A DNA stretch of 51,465 nucleotides from Rickettsiales bacterium (GTDB lineage Bacteria > Pseudomonadota > Alphaproteobacteria > Rickettsiales > JALZUV01), in NCBI GenBank assembly GCA_029252805.1, contig JAQXAR010000058.1, positions 1 to 51,465 on the forward strand. The letters run 5' to 3'. Position 1 is the stretch's first letter. Every line of letters begins with the position of its first letter. The notes under the pieces were generated by a model. It was not told where the DNA came from and did not search any database. It was given only the letters and a program-made list of their open reading frames with translations. Made by a program: the position numbers and the translations under genes. Positions 9,207 through 50,913 of this stretch are shown here, in pieces.

Positions 9207-9259
9207 GCAAATAAAAACCCCCGAAAGAGAATTTCTCTCTTCCGGGGGTTTTTATTTGC
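9207..9259. terminator. Bidirectional Rho-independent terminator (antiporter / rpoC)
   Basis: A 17-bp perfect stem pairs GCAAATAAAAACCCCCG (9207-9223) with its complement at 9243-9259, closing a further partly paired AAAGAGA/TCTCTT region. A-rich and T-rich flanks on the two sides make it usable in both directions between two convergent transcription units. The rest of the 226-bp gap (9065-9206) holds only a short hairpin (ATTGGC-GAA-GCCAAT) and no recognisable gene. Confidence 0.9.
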
Positions 9260-37057: not shown

Positions 37058-37131
37058 AAGCGGAATTTAGCACCTTAAAGAGTAGGTGCCAGCAAATTCG
37101 GTTGTTTGAGGCAGGAGTGAGCATAAAAGAA

Positions 37132-37167
37132 AAGGGGATGTTAACCTAAAAAAGCCAACATCCCCTT
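37132..37167 (-). terminator. Rho-independent terminator after ntrX
   Basis: AAGGGGATGTT (37132-37142) pairs perfectly with AACATCCCCTT (37157-37167) around a 14-nt loop. On the minus strand the stem is followed by TTCTTTT, so it ends the ntrY-ntrX transcript. Confidence 0.85.
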
Positions 37168-37190
37168 ATTTTTTCGTAATCTAAAGTAGC

Positions 37191-42857: not shown

Positions 42858-44132
42858 ATGACATCACATTTCGAAATTCAAATGCCCCATTGGCCCACTG
42901 CTAGTTGGGGGAATCTGCCCGGAGAACCACTTGAGCGAATGCATCGTTTGCTCGAAGAATTGGCGAATCCGCATCATCAATTGCCGCCTGTAGTGCATGT
43001 GGCCGGTACGAACGGCAAGGGTTCCACCATTGCCTTCCTGCGTGCCATATTAGAGGCAGCAGGCTATAGCGTGCATGCTTATACCTCGCCGCACATTAAA
43101 TCATTCTCCGAGCGTATTACCGTGGCGAGCCAGCCGGTTGATAAGAAGGCACTCTTTCATGCGTTAGAAGCCTGCCGTTCCGCGAATGCCGAACAGCCGA
43201 TTAGTTTCTTTGAAGGGACAACAGCGGCCGCCTTTATGTTATTTAGCCAAACACCGGCTGATATTTTATTGTTAGAAACAGGTATGGGCGGTCAGGATGA
43301 TCCGACCAATGTGTTGGATGAAGTGCGCCTTTCGATCATTACAACGATTTCGCAAGACCATATGGAATATCTCGGCGATACGATCGAGCATATTACCTCG
43401 CATAAGGCGGGTATTATTAAGGATGAATGCCCCGTCGTGTTTGGTTTCCAGTCACCTGAAGTGATGGAACTGTTGGAAAAATCTGCTGAGATTCATAAAT
43501 CTCCGGCGGTGGTTTACGGAAAACACTGGGCCGTTCAAAAAGCACTTGAAGGGTTTGTATTTGCCGATGGGCACGGGCAGATTCCTTTACCAGAGCCTGC
43601 CCTAAAGGGGCCGCACCAATTGATTAATGCCGGCTGTGCGATTGCGGCACTCTCTGCGCTTGATGAGTTTGAGGTGATGGGCGATCATATCGCAGCAGGC
43701 CTTAAATGGGTGCAATGGCCTGGGCGTTTAGAGTCAATCAATCATAAGGCATTACCTGACGATTGGGAGCTATGGTTTGATGGTGGGCATAATATGGCTG
43801 CCGGCCATATGCTTTCCGTACTGGCGGAAGATGAATGGTCGGATAAGCCGCTCTATATTATCTTTGGTACCACGCGTGGTAAGCAGATCGTTTCGATGTT
43901 GCAGCCACTCGCGCAATTGGCGGAAGAAATAATCGCTGTTCCTGTTGCGGCGGAGCCAAGCTGCTACACGCCGCAAGAGATCTTGGATCAGACCGATGAT
44001 GTGGGAATGTCGTTGATGCAGGCTGAGAGCGTTCAGATGGCGATTGAAGAGGTGAAAGCGATGTCTGGTGATGTGCCGGCGCGCATCCTCGTGTTCGGTT
44101 CGCTCTACCTACATTTAGAAGTCACCGCATAA
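42858..44132 (+). CDS. folC: Bifunctional dihydrofolate / folylpolyglutamate synthase
   Basis: FolC adds glutamate to dihydropteroate and to folates, retaining them in the cell. Its 424 residues include the ATP loop HVAGTNGKGST (47-57), YTSPHIKSFSERI, ETGMGGQDDPTNV and the C-terminal FDGGHNMAAG domain. The C-terminal motif is usually D-G-A-H-N; here it is D-G-G-H-N, a mild variant. The ATG at 42858 has little Shine-Dalgarno character. The usual accD neighbour is absent. A strong terminator follows the stop. Confidence 0.93.
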   Translation: MTSHFEIQMPHWPTASWGNLPGEPLERMHRLLEELANPHHQLPPVVHVAGTNGKGSTIAFLRAILEAAGYSVHAYTSPHIKSFSERITVASQPVDKKALFHALEACRSANAEQPISFFEGTTAAAFMLFSQTPADILLLETGMGGQDDPTNVLDEVRLSIITTISQDHMEYLGDTIEHITSHKAGIIKDECPVVFGFQSPEVMELLEKSAEIHKSPAVVYGKHWAVQKALEGFVFADGHGQIPLPEPALKGPHQLINAGCAIAALSALDEFEVMGDHIAAGLKWVQWPGRLESINHKALPDDWELWFDGGHNMAAGHMLSVLAEDEWSDKPLYIIFGTTRGKQIVSMLQPLAQLAEEIIAVPVAAEPSCYTPQEILDQTDDVGMSLMQAESVQMAIEEVKAMSGDVPARILVFGSLYLHLEVTA

Positions 44133-44170
44133 AAAAAGAGACCGGCCAAACTGACCGGTCTCTCTTTTTT
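44131..44170. terminator. Bidirectional terminator between folC and the pilin gene
   Basis: GAGACCGG (44138-44145) pairs with CCGGTCTC (44155-44162), flanked by A7 on the left and T6 on the right. It can terminate folC on the plus strand and the pilin-like gene on the minus strand. Confidence 0.9.
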
Positions 44171-45817: not shown

Positions 45818-46780
45818 CTATGCTTTTAGTAGGATTTTCCCAAGATTCAAGTTTTGTTCTATCTTTTTTATCGCTTTTCCGGCCTGTGAGAGTGGATATT
45901 CGCTATCGATAGCGGGAATTACCTGTCGATTCTCCAGCCAATCCCAGCAATGTTCGCGAATTTCTTGAGCGAGAATTGCTTTCTCTTTTGTACTGCGACT
46001 ACGTAGGGTGAGCCCGTGCCAGCTAATTTGTTTGAGCAGTAATGGCGCCATATTAAGTTCCGCCTTTGCACCTCGTAAGAAGGCAATCGAAACCATTCGC
46101 CCGCCGCGCTTTAGGCATTTGAGGTTTTTTTGAAAATAATCGCCACCGATCATATCAAGTACGACATCTACGCCGCCATGATGGGTTTTGAGGGCCTCCA
46201 CAAAGTCGCTTTCTTTATAGGAGTATGATTTTGCCGCGCCATACGTTTCGCTAAATTGGCACTTTTCTGCGCTACTAGCAGTGGTGATCGCAGTTGCCCC
46301 CGCTGCTGCAACCATTTGTGAGGCTAGGCTGCCAATACCACTCGCGCCACCATGGATGAGAACCGTTTCACCTGCTGTTACATGGGCGGTATGAAAGAGG
46401 GCGAGCCATATCGTAAAGAGGCCTTCGGGTAATGCGCCGGCTTCACGCAAGTTCCAGCCTTTGGGGATAGGAAAGGTTTGAGTTGCGGCGACTCGTGTAT
46501 ATTGGGCATAACCGCCGCCTTCTAATAAAGCGCAAACTTCGTCGTCGATATTATAGTTCGATACGCCTTCGCCGAGCGCGGCGATCGTACCGCTTACCTC
46601 TAAGCCGGGTAGAGGCGATGCGCCTTCAGGTGCCGGATAGCTGCCTTGCATTTGAAATAAATCCGCACGGTTGATAGCCGTATAAGCCACCTTAATAAGC
46701 ACTTCACCGGCACGCGGTACCAGTTGCTCTAGCTGATCATCATAAACCAGCGTTTCATTTTCAATACGAATTCCGAACAT
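45818..46780 (-). CDS. NAD(P)H-quinone oxidoreductase, MDR family
   Basis: This 320-residue, zinc-free medium-chain reductase resembles the quinone oxidoreductase/PIG3 group. It has NRADLFQMQGSYPAPEGASPLPGLEVSG at the GroES-like end, the NADPH loop VLIHGGASGIGSLASQ, and VLDMIGGDYFQKNLKCL. No catalytic or structural zinc Cys cluster is present. It would reduce quinones or reactive carbonyls. The pairing with trcR is common in alphaproteobacteria. It lies 77 bp after ftsI. Confidence 0.9.
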   Translation of the reverse strand: MFGIRIENETLVYDDQLEQLVPRAGEVLIKVAYTAINRADLFQMQGSYPAPEGASPLPGLEVSGTIAALGEGVSNYNIDDEVCALLEGGGYAQYTRVAATQTFPIPKGWNLREAGALPEGLFTIWLALFHTAHVTAGETVLIHGGASGIGSLASQMVAAAGATAITTASSAEKCQFSETYGAAKSYSYKESDFVEALKTHHGGVDVVLDMIGGDYFQKNLKCLKRGGRMVSIAFLRGAKAELNMAPLLLKQISWHGLTLRSRSTKEKAILAQEIREHCWDWLENRQVIPAIDSEYPLSQAGKAIKKIEQNLNLGKILLKA

Positions 46781-46857: not shown

Positions 46858-48579
46858 CTAGAACGAAATCGCTTGCACCTTTGCGCCTTTAGCGGTGCCT
46901 TCGGCTGGCAACTCAAATATAGGGCGGATGCCGTAGAGGGGGGCCATTTTCTCGATGATGCGTTTGACGATGGGGGCCGCGACCCAGCCGCCGGTGGCAT
47001 AGCCGTAGGTGCTTTTATTGCCGCGCGGTTCGTCTAGCATGGCGAGGATCACGTAGCGTGGGGCTTCAGTGGGGAAGACGCCAACGAAGGATGCGAGTTT
47101 ATCTTTATCGCGGTAATTGCCGTTTTTGACTTTTTCCGCCGTACCAGTTTTTCCGCCAACGCGGTAACCCACGGCGTTGGCTTTACGCGCGGTGCCGTGT
47201 TCGACGACGAGACGCATGAGTTTGCGTAGCTGGTCGGTGGTCTCTTGCGCGATTACGGTTGGGCGTGTTTTGGTCTCTTCGTTATGCGCGTCTTTGATGA
47301 GGGTGGGGGAAAGCTTTTTGCCATCGCCCAGCAAGGTGCCGATACTTTGTATCAAGTGCAGCGGCGTGACGGAGATGCCGTGACCGTAGGAGATCGTCAT
47401 CATGTTAATGTCGCGCCATGTTTTAGGGATGAGCGGCATTGCGACTTCGGGCAGCTCAATCGGCACACGCTCGAATAGGCCGAGTTGTTTTAGGAAATCT
47501 TGTTGGCGTTTTTTGCCAACATCCATCACCATTTTCACGGTACCAATATTGGAAGAGAGCATGAAAATCTCCGGAACTGTCAGCCACCGATTTTCAGGAT
47601 GGCTATCGCGGATGGTATATTTGGCGATTTTAATCGGCTTCGTAACATCGTAGCGGTCAAATATTTTGGCGGTTTTATGGTGAAGTGCCATCGCAGTGGT
47701 GAAGGTTTTAAAGGTAGATCCCATTTCATACACCCCCGTTGCGGCGCGGTTGAAGCGAGCGTCGGCTGTAGCTTTTTTCGGCTCGTTCGGGTCGAAATCG
47801 GGCAGGCTGGAGAGTGCCATAATCTCGCCATTGGTGATATCCATGACTACGCCGACGCCGCCAATGGCTTTGAACTCTTCCATGCCGGAGCGTAGCTCGT
47901 CGCGCAGGATGTGCTGTAAGCGGGCATCCATGGAGAGGGTGAGATCTTCGCCTTTTTCGCTTAAGCTTTTATCGAATTTCTTTTCAATCGCGGAGAGGCC
48001 CTCGCCATCGACATTGGTAAAGCCAACCGTGTGGCTGAAGGAATTTCCGTGTGGGTAAACGCGGCGCATGGCTTCTTCAAATTCTAAGCCAGGAATGCCG
48101 AGTGCGTTCACCGCTTCCATTTGTGATGGCGTGATGTGGCGTTTGAGATAAACGAAGCTGCGTTTGGGGTTGAGCTTTTTGAGAATCTTTTTTCGGTCGA
48201 GGTCTGGGAAGATATGAGCGAGTTTTTCCGCTGCCTCTTTTGCGCCGAAACGGTCAATGATGCGCGGTTTTGCGTAAAGCGTTTGCGAGGGTAGGGATAC
48301 GGCGAGCAGTTCACCGTTGCGGTCATAAATGCTGCCGCGCGTGACTGTGTTTACTTTTTTCACCGGAGTGAGGCCGTTATTGGCCATCATCTGGTTACGG
48401 TTATTATTGGGCTGCAATAGTGAGACATCGATAATGCGAACGGCTAATAGCGCGTAGCACATCAGCAATAAGCCCGCGATGAAAACAAGGCGGGTTCGGC
48501 ATTGGTCCAGCGAGCGCTTGCTGGCGCTATCGCGCTGCATGCGGTGGACGGGAATGGATGAGGTGCTATGTCGGGTCAT
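46858..48579 (-). CDS. ftsI: Peptidoglycan transpeptidase FtsI (PBP3)
   Basis: FtsI cross-links septal peptidoglycan. Its 573 residues include a cytoplasmic basic N-terminus, one TM helix (about 30-50), a PBP dimerisation domain (RGSIYDRNGELLAVS at about 81-95) and the transpeptidase domain. The active site has Ser288 in STFK, the S-S-N at 342-344 and KTGT at 477-480. The start codon overlaps the ftsL stop by one base (TAATG). The genes that normally follow (murE, murF, mraY) are absent; a quinone oxidoreductase comes next. Confidence 0.95.
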   Translation of the reverse strand: MTRHSTSSIPVHRMQRDSASKRSLDQCRTRLVFIAGLLLMCYALLAVRIIDVSLLQPNNNRNQMMANNGLTPVKKVNTVTRGSIYDRNGELLAVSLPSQTLYAKPRIIDRFGAKEAAEKLAHIFPDLDRKKILKKLNPKRSFVYLKRHITPSQMEAVNALGIPGLEFEEAMRRVYPHGNSFSHTVGFTNVDGEGLSAIEKKFDKSLSEKGEDLTLSMDARLQHILRDELRSGMEEFKAIGGVGVVMDITNGEIMALSSLPDFDPNEPKKATADARFNRAATGVYEMGSTFKTFTTAMALHHKTAKIFDRYDVTKPIKIAKYTIRDSHPENRWLTVPEIFMLSSNIGTVKMVMDVGKKRQQDFLKQLGLFERVPIELPEVAMPLIPKTWRDINMMTISYGHGISVTPLHLIQSIGTLLGDGKKLSPTLIKDAHNEETKTRPTVIAQETTDQLRKLMRLVVEHGTARKANAVGYRVGGKTGTAEKVKNGNYRDKDKLASFVGVFPTEAPRYVILAMLDEPRGNKSTYGYATGGWVAAPIVKRIIEKMAPLYGIRPIFELPAEGTAKGAKVQAISF

Positions 48580-48914
48580 TACTCTATGGAGTAAGATGAA
48601 TAAGTTAACGCTTCGTTACCTTGCTCCATTAAAACGGGCTGTGGTGGAAATTCCTGAATCTCTGCGACTTGTGTGCCATTGCCGGGCGTTAGCTTAGGGA
48701 GATGCTTGCGTGCGAGTTTCTCCAGACGATCAGGGCGGGTGAGGTAAGCCCATTCGGCGGCCAACACTTCAAGCGCACGTTGCTCTTTAATCATGTCTGC
48801 TTCGACCAATAGATTTTGATCGCGCAATTCGCGGACTTGCCATTTCACTTCATACAAGCCGTAAGCTGAGGCGATGATGACGCCGAACCATAATGCCATT
48901 GTGCGTTTTCTCAT
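48579..48914 (-). CDS. ftsL: Cell division protein FtsL
   Basis: This 111-residue bitopic protein has an N-terminal TM (about residues 6-22: MALWFGVIIASAYGLYE) followed by a leucine-zipper-like coiled coil (about 25-70: VRELRDQNLLVEADMIKEQRALEVLAAEW, then YLTRPDRLEKLARKHL). FtsL bridges FtsB/FtsQ to FtsI-FtsW. The family is weakly conserved, so position between rsmH and ftsI supports the call. It overlaps rsmH by 4 bp and ftsI by 1 bp. Confidence 0.88.
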   Translation of the reverse strand: MRKRTMALWFGVIIASAYGLYEVKWQVRELRDQNLLVEADMIKEQRALEVLAAEWAYLTRPDRLEKLARKHLPKLTPGNGTQVAEIQEFPPQPVLMEQGNEALTYSSYSIE

Positions 48915-49855
48915 GCTGCTTCCTCGGTGCGAATGCCTATGCGTAATTTTGCCGAACGCGAACGTGCGTTAATGGCGGATTCTTCGGTACTTGCTGCCAC
49001 GGCCTTCTTTCGATAGGGCATGGTGAAAAGTGGAGGGGCCACTTCTTCTGCCACCGGCAAATGCCGTGACCCCCCAAGGTTTTCACGAGAGCAAGTTGTG
49101 AAAAAGTGTTTCGCAATGCGATCTTCCAGCGAATGGAAGCTTACGACTACGAGTCGTCCGCCGCTGTTTAGGAGGTGTTTGGAGGAGGCTAGCGCCGTTT
49201 CCAATTCTTCCAACTCGCGGTTGACGTAAATGCGGAGCGCCTGAAAGCTGCGTGTGGCAGGGTGGATTTTTTGTTTCCCCTTCGGCGCAGCTTTGGCGAT
49301 AATTTCAGCTAATTGTAGCGTTGTTTCAATCGGCGCTTCTTCGCGAGCGGCGATTATCGCGCGAGCAATACGGCGAGACTTCTTTTCTTCGCCGTATTTA
49401 TAAAGAATATTGGCAAGTTCATCGGCTTCCATCGAATTCACCGCATCAGCCGCCGATTGGCCCTGCTGGCTCTGACGCATATCGAGTGCGCCATCGCGCA
49501 TGAAGCTGAATCCACGTTCAGCTTGGTCTATCTGCATCGACGACACGCCTAAATCCATGACGATGCCATCGACTTTGGTGACGCCATGTGCGGCGAGGAG
49601 TTCGGTCATTTCTGAAAAGCTTCCGGCGAGGAAGATAAAGCGATCTGGAAAGTCTTGTTGAAGCTTTTCAGCAAATCCATTCACATCCGGATCGCGGTCA
49701 ATCGCGTAGAGTTTACATTCGGCGGCTTCTAATATCGCGCGGCTATACCCACCGGCGCCAAACGTGGCATCTACATAGATTTCGTCATTTACGGGGGCTA
49801 GAGTCTCCAGCACCTCAGGTAACATAACAGGAATGTGAGGTGCGTTTTGCTCCAT
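48911..49855 (-). CDS. rsmH: 16S rRNA (cytosine1402-N4)-methyltransferase
   Basis: RsmH (MraW) methylates C1402 in the decoding centre, using SAM. Its 314 residues include HIPVMLPEVLETL, the SAM loop DATFGAGGYSRAIL, DGIVMDLGVSSMQIDQAERGF and ATRSFQALRIYVNREL, then VVVSFHSLEDRIAKHF. The ATG overlaps the stop of the 55-codon ORF upstream (TGATG), so translation is likely coupled along mraZ-ORF55-rsmH-ftsL-ftsI. Confidence 0.96.
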   Translation of the reverse strand: MEQNAPHIPVMLPEVLETLAPVNDEIYVDATFGAGGYSRAILEAAECKLYAIDRDPDVNGFAEKLQQDFPDRFIFLAGSFSEMTELLAAHGVTKVDGIVMDLGVSSMQIDQAERGFSFMRDGALDMRQSQQGQSAADAVNSMEADELANILYKYGEEKKSRRIARAIIAAREEAPIETTLQLAEIIAKAAPKGKQKIHPATRSFQALRIYVNRELEELETALASSKHLLNSGGRLVVVSFHSLEDRIAKHFFTTCSRENLGGSRHLPVAEEVAPPLFTMPYRKKAVAASTEESAINARSRSAKLRIGIRTEEAA

Positions 49856-50022
49856 CAGCCGTAAACCTCAAGCCAAGCGGGTAGGTTGTCATTGGCGGGG
49901 CAGATCGGTTTCCATTCGGTGCCGATCACGGCGCTGGCGCCCCGAAATCCGCGCTCAATCTCAGAGTCACTGGTTTCTTCTTCAGGGCTTGTCCAATCGC
50001 AATTTAGCGTCACCATCATCAT
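49855..50022 (-). CDS. 55-residue ORF coupled between mraZ and rsmH
   Basis: This frame starts at 50022 with three consecutive ATG codons; the first overlaps the mraZ stop (ATGA). It ends in a TGA that overlaps the rsmH ATG (TGATG). The peptide is acidic and soluble (MMMVTLNCDWTSPEEETSDS at the start, then WKPICPANDNLPAWLEVYG at the end), with two Cys and three Trp. mraZ and rsmH are usually adjacent without a gene between them. Exact stop-start overlap at both ends argues for a translated gene. The family is not recognised. Confidence 0.6.
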   Translation of the reverse strand: MMMVTLNCDWTSPEEETSDSEIERGFRGASAVIGTEWKPICPANDNLPAWLEVYG

Positions 50023-50486
50023 GCGTCGCCGCCTTTCATGCTTTCGGCACGAAGTTTCAGGCGTTGTGCGCGTGCGAGCTTGCGTGCTTGTTCAGCGTAA
50101 GCTTCAAAGGCTTTTGGTTCCCATATCTCAAAGGTTTCGCCTTTACCGACGAACAGCGCGTGATCGGTTAGGCCTGCATCTGCAATAAGTGTTTCTGGTA
50201 AAAGCACGCGGCCTTCACCATCAAAGGAAATTTGCGAGCTGCCACCGAGAATAGTGGTCGCGAAGGCGTCGCGTTCTTCAGAGAACGGGTCGAGTGTTTC
50301 AATATTAGCGGAGAGTTTGGCGATACGGTCATATCCGCAGGCTTCAATGCAAGGATTGATGAAAGAGCCGTAAGCGATAATGCCGTGAAATTCTTGGTCT
50401 GCGAGAGCCGAGCGGAAGGGTGCAGGAATGGATACACGCCCCTTCTTGTCAATTTTATTTGTAAAGGTCGATAGAAACAACGCCAT
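50019..50486 (-). CDS. mraZ: MraZ transcriptional regulator of the division cluster
   Basis: MraZ is a SpoVT-AbrB-fold DNA-binding protein that represses its own operon through TGGGN repeats. It has 155 residues in two repeats: FTNKIDKKGRVSIPAPFRSAL (about 8-28) and ISFDGEGRVLLPETLIADAGL (about 87-107). It is first in the dcw cluster. The nearest Shine-Dalgarno (GGGAG) is about 19 nt from the ATG, so initiation looks inefficient or structure-dependent. The matching operator lies about 280 bp upstream. Confidence 0.94.
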   Translation of the reverse strand: MALFLSTFTNKIDKKGRVSIPAPFRSALADQEFHGIIAYGSFINPCIEACGYDRIAKLSANIETLDPFSEERDAFATTILGGSSQISFDGEGRVLLPETLIADAGLTDHALFVGKGETFEIWEPKAFEAYAEQARKLARAQRLKLRAESMKGGDA

Positions 50487-50571
50487 ACTTTTTAAAATCT
50501 TAACTCCCTGCTCATAGCCAGAAAGACTCTGGCCATATCTTCACCCTCTGATGGGGTTGTTTAAATAAGAC

Positions 50572-50605
50572 TCGGATTAGATCGACCGAAATCGATCTAA
50601 TCCGA
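50572..50605. repeat. Perfect 14-bp hairpin in the mraZ leader
   Basis: TCGGATTAGATCGA and its exact complement TCGATCTAATCCGA flank a 6-nt loop (CCGAAA). It lies between the MraZ box and mraZ, so it would be in the 5' leader if transcription starts at the box. It has no T run on the minus strand. Confidence 0.8.
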
Positions 50606-50617
50606 AGTTAGTGTTCG

Positions 50618-50651
50618 ACGGGGCTGTCTGAATAGATTCAGCAAGCCCCGT
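50618..50651. repeat. Second nested hairpin in the mraZ leader
   Basis: ACGGGGCT (50618-50625) pairs with AGCCCCGT (50644-50651), and an inner CTGAAT/ATTCAG stem (50628-50633, 50636-50641) stacks on it with 2-nt internal loops on each side. It lies 12 bp from the first hairpin. Together they give a strongly structured leader. Confidence 0.8.
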
Positions 50652-50744
50652 CTATGTTTTGCGGTTTTAAGATTCCCCAACCTTGTACCGTCTTCTCGTG
50701 CCCCCAAATCCTCATGTCGGTTTCCCCTGACAAGTAGCCTCTTA

Positions 50745-50830
50745 TGGGCCTTTTGGTTTTCCATGGGATTTCATGGGCTGTTATGGGAAATTAACCAGAA
50801 TTGATGGGTGTGGTCAATCGTTACATGGGA
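50745..50830 (+). promoter_or_regulatory. MraZ operator: six TGGGN repeats
   Basis: TGGGA (50764-50768), TGGGC (50774-50778) and TGGGA (50784-50788) are each separated by exactly 5 bp, the known MraZ-box architecture. Three more ATGGG copies in the same direction flank it at 50745, 50805 and 50826, spaced about two helical turns apart. The repeats read on the plus strand, opposite to mraZ. The promoter is expected between here and about 50660, but no -35/-10 pair is convincing. Confidence 0.8.
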
Positions 50831-50892: not shown

Positions 50893-50913
50893 AGTGGATA
50901 AGATTGTGGATAA
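50893..50913. promoter_or_regulatory. Pair of DnaA-box-like sites
   Basis: AGTGGATAA (50893-50901, one mismatch) and TGTGGATAA (50905-50913, the exact complement of TTATCCACA) lie 12 bp apart in an AT-rich stretch. They could link division-cluster expression to DnaA or mark a replication-related locus. The rest of the non-coding stretch 50487-51143 contains only the sites listed separately. Confidence 0.45.

Follow-up and report, generated by a model that had tools for sequence, protein, structure and literature searches.

The mraZ leader of this Rickettsiales bacterium probably contains an intrinsic terminator, with a leader RNA of ∼215 to 219 nt as its product and with the division genes transcribed by read-through. 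The division cluster lies on the minus strand of the stretch analyzed here (51,465 nucleotides; "the window"), which stops upstream of the cluster (Table 1). From the anatomy of the sequence and its conservation in one relative, we infer that transcription starts at the MraZ boxes (∼50782), giving a leader of ∼296 nt; that a hairpin, H1, acts with its T-rich tail as an intrinsic terminator inside this leader; that some or most transcripts stop just after H1, leaving the short RNA; and that mraZ-rsmH-ftsL-ftsI are transcribed by read-through past H1. The short RNA may also have a function of its own, and an invariant 34-nt block would be the likeliest control or sRNA segment.

Table 1. Features of the mraZ leader and division gene cluster in the window (G001, the same-genus genome compared)
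Feature	Position	Strand	Remarks
mraZ	50019-50486	minus	First division-cluster gene; Pfam MraZ PF02381, 75.4 bits
rsmH	48911-49855	minus	
ftsL-like frame	48579-48914	minus	Named from position only; without Pfam match
ftsI	46858-48579	minus	
Predicted −35, TTGACC	50812-50817	minus	17-nt spacer to −10
Predicted −10, TTAATT	50789-50794	minus	Predicted start near 50782
MraZ-box array, CCCAT units at 10-bp steps	50738-50787	minus	One further unit downstream
34-nt block	50661-50694	minus	Identical in G001; can form small GGGG-loop hairpin
H2, imperfect hairpin	50617-50652	minus	Absent from G001 (42 nt shorter there)
H1, terminator-like hairpin	50571-50606	minus	−23.1 kcal/mol; kept in G001
T-rich tail of H1	50557-50570	minus	TCTTATTTAAACAA in window; TTTTTCTTAA in G001
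CCCCATCAGAGGG	50544-50556	minus	Identical in G001
H3, hairpin between H1 and mraZ	50513-50538	minus	Folds in own genome and G001

The original prediction was conditional on a transcription start near the MraZ box, and the predicted promoter agrees with such a start. The −35 and −10 elements precede the first of the CCCAT units, which at their 10-bp spacing we take to be MraZ boxes, and this first box (50783-50787) directly follows the predicted −10; a promoter sitting on the boxes is what sets the predicted leader length. The same geometry recurs in relatives across the order, which argues for the terminator reading. A chain of at least three CCA units was present in 106 of 112 mraZ upstream regions, with 55 occurrences of TTGAC at 28 to 32 nt before the first unit; at 33 of the 106 loci, TTGAC was absent from the interval of 15 to 45 nt. 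The distance from first box to start codon, in which assigned starts may be off by a few bases and the longest values may be misassigned, ranged from 29 to 470 nt (median, 94.5), and the 300 nt of the window is among the longest. These 112 regions take in eight further loci (L064 to L071), kept apart from the order in the uniform-detector count below; five duplicates, two loci with truncated upstream sequence (L007 and L012), and four for which the start codon was not found (L118, L127, L129, and L140) were left out beforehand.

Upstream of the promoter (50894-50913, minus strand), the window carries a DnaA-box consensus, TTATCCACA, and a second site, TTATCCAC, both also found in G001. The mraZ-ftsL operon of Bacillus subtilis is under DnaA control. 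In the 200 nt preceding the first MraZ box, TTWTCCACA (either strand) gave 14 occurrences at 12 of the 98 order loci and 12 occurrences at 12 of the 96 class loci (shuffle expectations, 0.66 and 0.52, respectively). It did not occur in 78 kb further upstream, an imperfect control in that those stretches are partly coding.

The leader RNA from 50487 to 50700 has a folding energy of −78.2 kcal/mol; shuffled versions averaged −50.2 (standard deviation, 4.3; z = −6.5), and none of 200 was as low. Of the two perfect hairpins originally described here, H1 proved to have a perfect 14-bp stem (arms 50572-50585 and 50592-50605, 100% complementary) that reaches one position further on each side in the minus-strand RNA and is closed by a UUCG loop. 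H2 is imperfect, with 9 bp, a 2-by-2 mismatch, and 5 bp (88% complementary as an ungapped repeat). H3, a third leader hairpin that had gone unmentioned, has no T-tail. H1 is a stable hairpin followed immediately by a U-tract, both in the window (TCTTATTT, where the tract is interrupted) and in G001 (TTTTTCTT). Besides H1, three intergenic hairpins in the window reach −20 kcal/mol or below (9209-9257, 37130-37169, and 44131-44169), and each of them follows a gene end, which supports reading H1 as a terminator.

Conservation rests on two genomes, the window's own (G000) and G001, the sole same-genus genome compared. Their MraZ proteins are 90% identical and their mraZ genes 80% identical at the nucleotide level; the longest identical run within mraZ is 17 nt, whereas the block upstream of H1 is identical over all of its 34 nt. 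The −10 and the first MraZ boxes are also identical. In G001, H1 occupies the same place at −20.9 kcal/mol; one of its pairs has changed in a compensatory way, and a strong T-run, GTTTTTCTT, comes right after it, which argues for termination; the RNA from predicted start to tail would measure ∼219 nt in the window and ∼180 nt in G001. Ten of the 14 H1 pairs are unchanged, one is changed on both sides and one on one side, and two are unformed in this register, where G001 makes a bulged variant. In H3, 6 of 10 pairs are unchanged, two are changed on both sides (compensatory), and two on one side. Conservation of the stems, on which the original prediction hinged, thus extends to H1 and to H3 as well but not to H2, which is missing from G001.

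Slid versions of the pairing gave 19 to 43% paired cells, compared with 95.7% for the pairing itself. When 12 random substitutions were placed on H1, 0.06% of 5,000 trials folded as stably as the H1 of G001, a rarity that favors the terminator reading. With changes confined to the observed H1 positions, 7.8% (random bases) and 25% (permuted bases) folded as well; these trials are therefore mainly evidence that changes avoided the outer stem of H1. The confined trials weigh against the terminator reading, as do the dependence on two genomes, a pair-shuffle control over two sequences that was not significant (56/500), the interrupted T-tract of the window, and the unconserved H2.

Leader terminators were then counted across the order and class. 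A first detector, applied to leaders of 70 to 340 nt, scored 3 of 65 positive versus 0.2 expected. A uniform detector (at least 8 bp, −18 kcal/mol or below, and a T-tail) was run on an order sample of 104 loci, 98 of them with boxes, from which 70 leaders of at least 60 nt were tested; three were positive (the window, G001, and G019), with 0.00 expected from shuffles, which again favors a terminator. Among the eight loci kept apart from the order, six were tested and none was positive. Of the 106 loci in the class sample, 96 had boxes and 92 were tested, with one weaker positive versus 0.05 expected; the sample comprised 26 automatic loci and 80 chosen by hand among the matches listed, mostly one per family, with 313 genomes having a match. 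In a Rhodobacteraceae-like control family, 24 of 30 fixed 320-nt stretches were positive. Most relatives thus have no strong leader terminator, which counts against the terminator reading.

The G019 leader (locus L013), from another family of the order, likewise has a strong hairpin (−21.0 kcal/mol) and T-run between MraZ boxes and mraZ; it differs from that of the window in sequence, in being just 119 nt long, and in a stem that holds MraZ-box-like CCCA units. Its hairpin, GTCCCAAGTAGTT...AACTACTTGGGAC followed by the T-run, takes in these units, so operator and terminator may overlap there. No Hfq match was found in this 81%-complete genome. Two further loci of the order (L014 and L015, family f5) have long mraZ leaders containing a short reading frame with a hydrophobic end and, by eye, no strong hairpins.

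That such an arrangement is workable ahead of mraZ is shown by UpsM of Rhodobacter sphaeroides, which lends weight to the terminator reading. According to excerpts of the original report (Weber et al. 2016, PMC5089854), the R. sphaeroides mraZ leader is 268 nt long, and its terminator, with read-through estimated at ∼1 in 100 events, yields a 206-nt sRNA; an sORF overlaps the terminator. The same excerpts describe such leaders as exclusive to Rhodobacteraceae, and we found no report of a leader terminator of this kind outside that family among the open-licence papers listed. By comparison, the window has a predicted leader of ∼296 nt with a terminator hairpin before mraZ and a predicted RNA of ∼215 to 219 nt; as in the excerpted account, no nearer promoter was seen, a short frame runs over the terminator, and Hfq is encoded. 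Expression, Hfq binding, and RNase E cutting have been demonstrated for UpsM, again per the excerpts (PMC5089854), whereas the anatomy of the window leader is a prediction from sequence; excerpts of a later report add that StsR binds UpsM and promotes its cutting (PMC8307010).

In both the window's genome and G001, an intrinsic terminator is predicted to lie downstream of the mraZ promoter and ahead of the gene itself. If the inference holds, the window leader would work like UpsM, a likeness of arrangement rather than established membership. CGGATT/AATCCG at the terminator base is shared with UpsM, and a loose GACGG...GGGG likeness was seen by eye; both were treated as chance, and homology was set aside, because a profile built from 24 UpsM-type leaders reported no match on the leaders of the window and G001 (L001 and L002) at E values up to 1,000. 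Both genomes carry an Hfq gene (among 33 genomes searched, 11 had a match, 10 above the cutoff), which would permit an sRNA role for the leader.

DNA comparison across 343 order genomes gave a strong match just in the own genome and G001. A two-sequence model from H1 to H3 (R1), searched against 299 genomes, matched these two and one place in G223 (E = 4.8e-4), far from its mraZ. A dispersed repeat was ruled out, as the own genome has no second copy of the hairpin pair (apart from the pair itself, the comparison gave only one 14-nt stretch, lying in a reading frame, and one 17-nt match with an E value of 1.3). No known RNA family was identified, as no Rfam family reached threshold near the site. 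The mraW RNA motif of Actinobacteria is likewise a structured RNA ahead of division genes; its covariance model (RF01746) matched none of 36 genomes, including that of the window, and did match the Corynebacterium glutamicum control.

An explanation in which H1 and H3 serve as mRNA-stability, processing, or protein-binding hairpins of a long leader, without appreciable termination, is unlikely but deserves serious consideration. It accounts for the retention of both stems in G001, for the missing T-tail of H3, and for the interrupted T-tract of the window; it sits poorly with the T-run directly after H1 in G001 and with the resemblance of H1 to the 3′-end terminators of the window. The proposal that the 14-bp palindrome is a DNA operator, raised in the original prediction, has weakened to the point of being very improbable. 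The inverted repeat is perfect at the DNA level, but the inner half of the H1 arms is changed in G001 with hairpin stability kept, the minus-strand RNA has the UUCG loop and T-rich tail, and the 14-nt stretch noted above is its only other copy in the genome. Less probable still is that the invariant block is a second promoter and the real leader much shorter: the block is among the most conserved stretches upstream, but a promoter scan found no site in it, H1 would remain downstream, and the geometry of the main promoter recurs across the order.

The attenuator also put forward originally fares differently for its two hairpins: H1, conserved in the relative with a U-tract and lying downstream of a predicted promoter at the MraZ boxes, is consistent with it, and H2, lacking in the relative, is not. 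Folding the leader up to the 3′ arm of H1 gave differing alternatives in the two genomes, and no conserved antiterminator was found among them. A leader-peptide version, in which a short frame stops inside the 5′ arm of H1 and a translating ribosome would block H1 and allow read-through, appears improbable. A single frame stays open through the invariant block in both genomes, is not shifted by the 42 nt by which they differ in length here, and terminates at the same TAG; the R. sphaeroides leader likewise has an sORF over its terminator, per the excerpts cited (PMC5089854). However, residues differ outside the invariant nucleotides, start codons differ, no run of a single amino acid is present, and a chance open frame of such length is not rare by our estimate (not computed); across the two genomes, the frame shows no coding constraint of its own. 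The suggested translation switch gained no specific support. The mraZ ribosome-binding site is poor, as claimed, but the same crude test finds a well-placed site for just 19 of 39 genes in the window, so its weakness is unremarkable. AUU and AUA before the mraZ ATG were spotted as alternative start codons and found no further support.

Elsewhere in the cluster, a 55-aa reading frame that overlaps the mraZ stop in the mraZ/rsmH interval (49855-50022, minus strand) shows good conservation in G001, with the C-terminal end GTEWKPICPANDNLPxWLEVYG, and is probably a small protein gene. In the usual dcw order, murE follows ftsI; here, the next gene downstream (45818-46780, minus strand) encodes a zinc-binding dehydrogenase family member.

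Beyond the preferred reading of an intrinsic terminator with read-through, we tentatively entertain, as a possibility rather than an expectation, that this uncultured lineage has in its leader a dedicated regulatory RNA with no sequence relation to UpsM. In such an RNA, the 34-nt block would be a signal sensor or would act, as an Hfq-dependent sRNA, on other RNAs, and the amount of division proteins supplied would be set by termination at H1. The invariant block and terminator form a defined element for testing. If the leader is such an RNA, premature termination before mraZ would have arisen at least twice in Alphaproteobacteria; a leader terminator unrelated in sequence and found in a different alphaproteobacterial order would point to more than one origin for the gating of division genes by this means.
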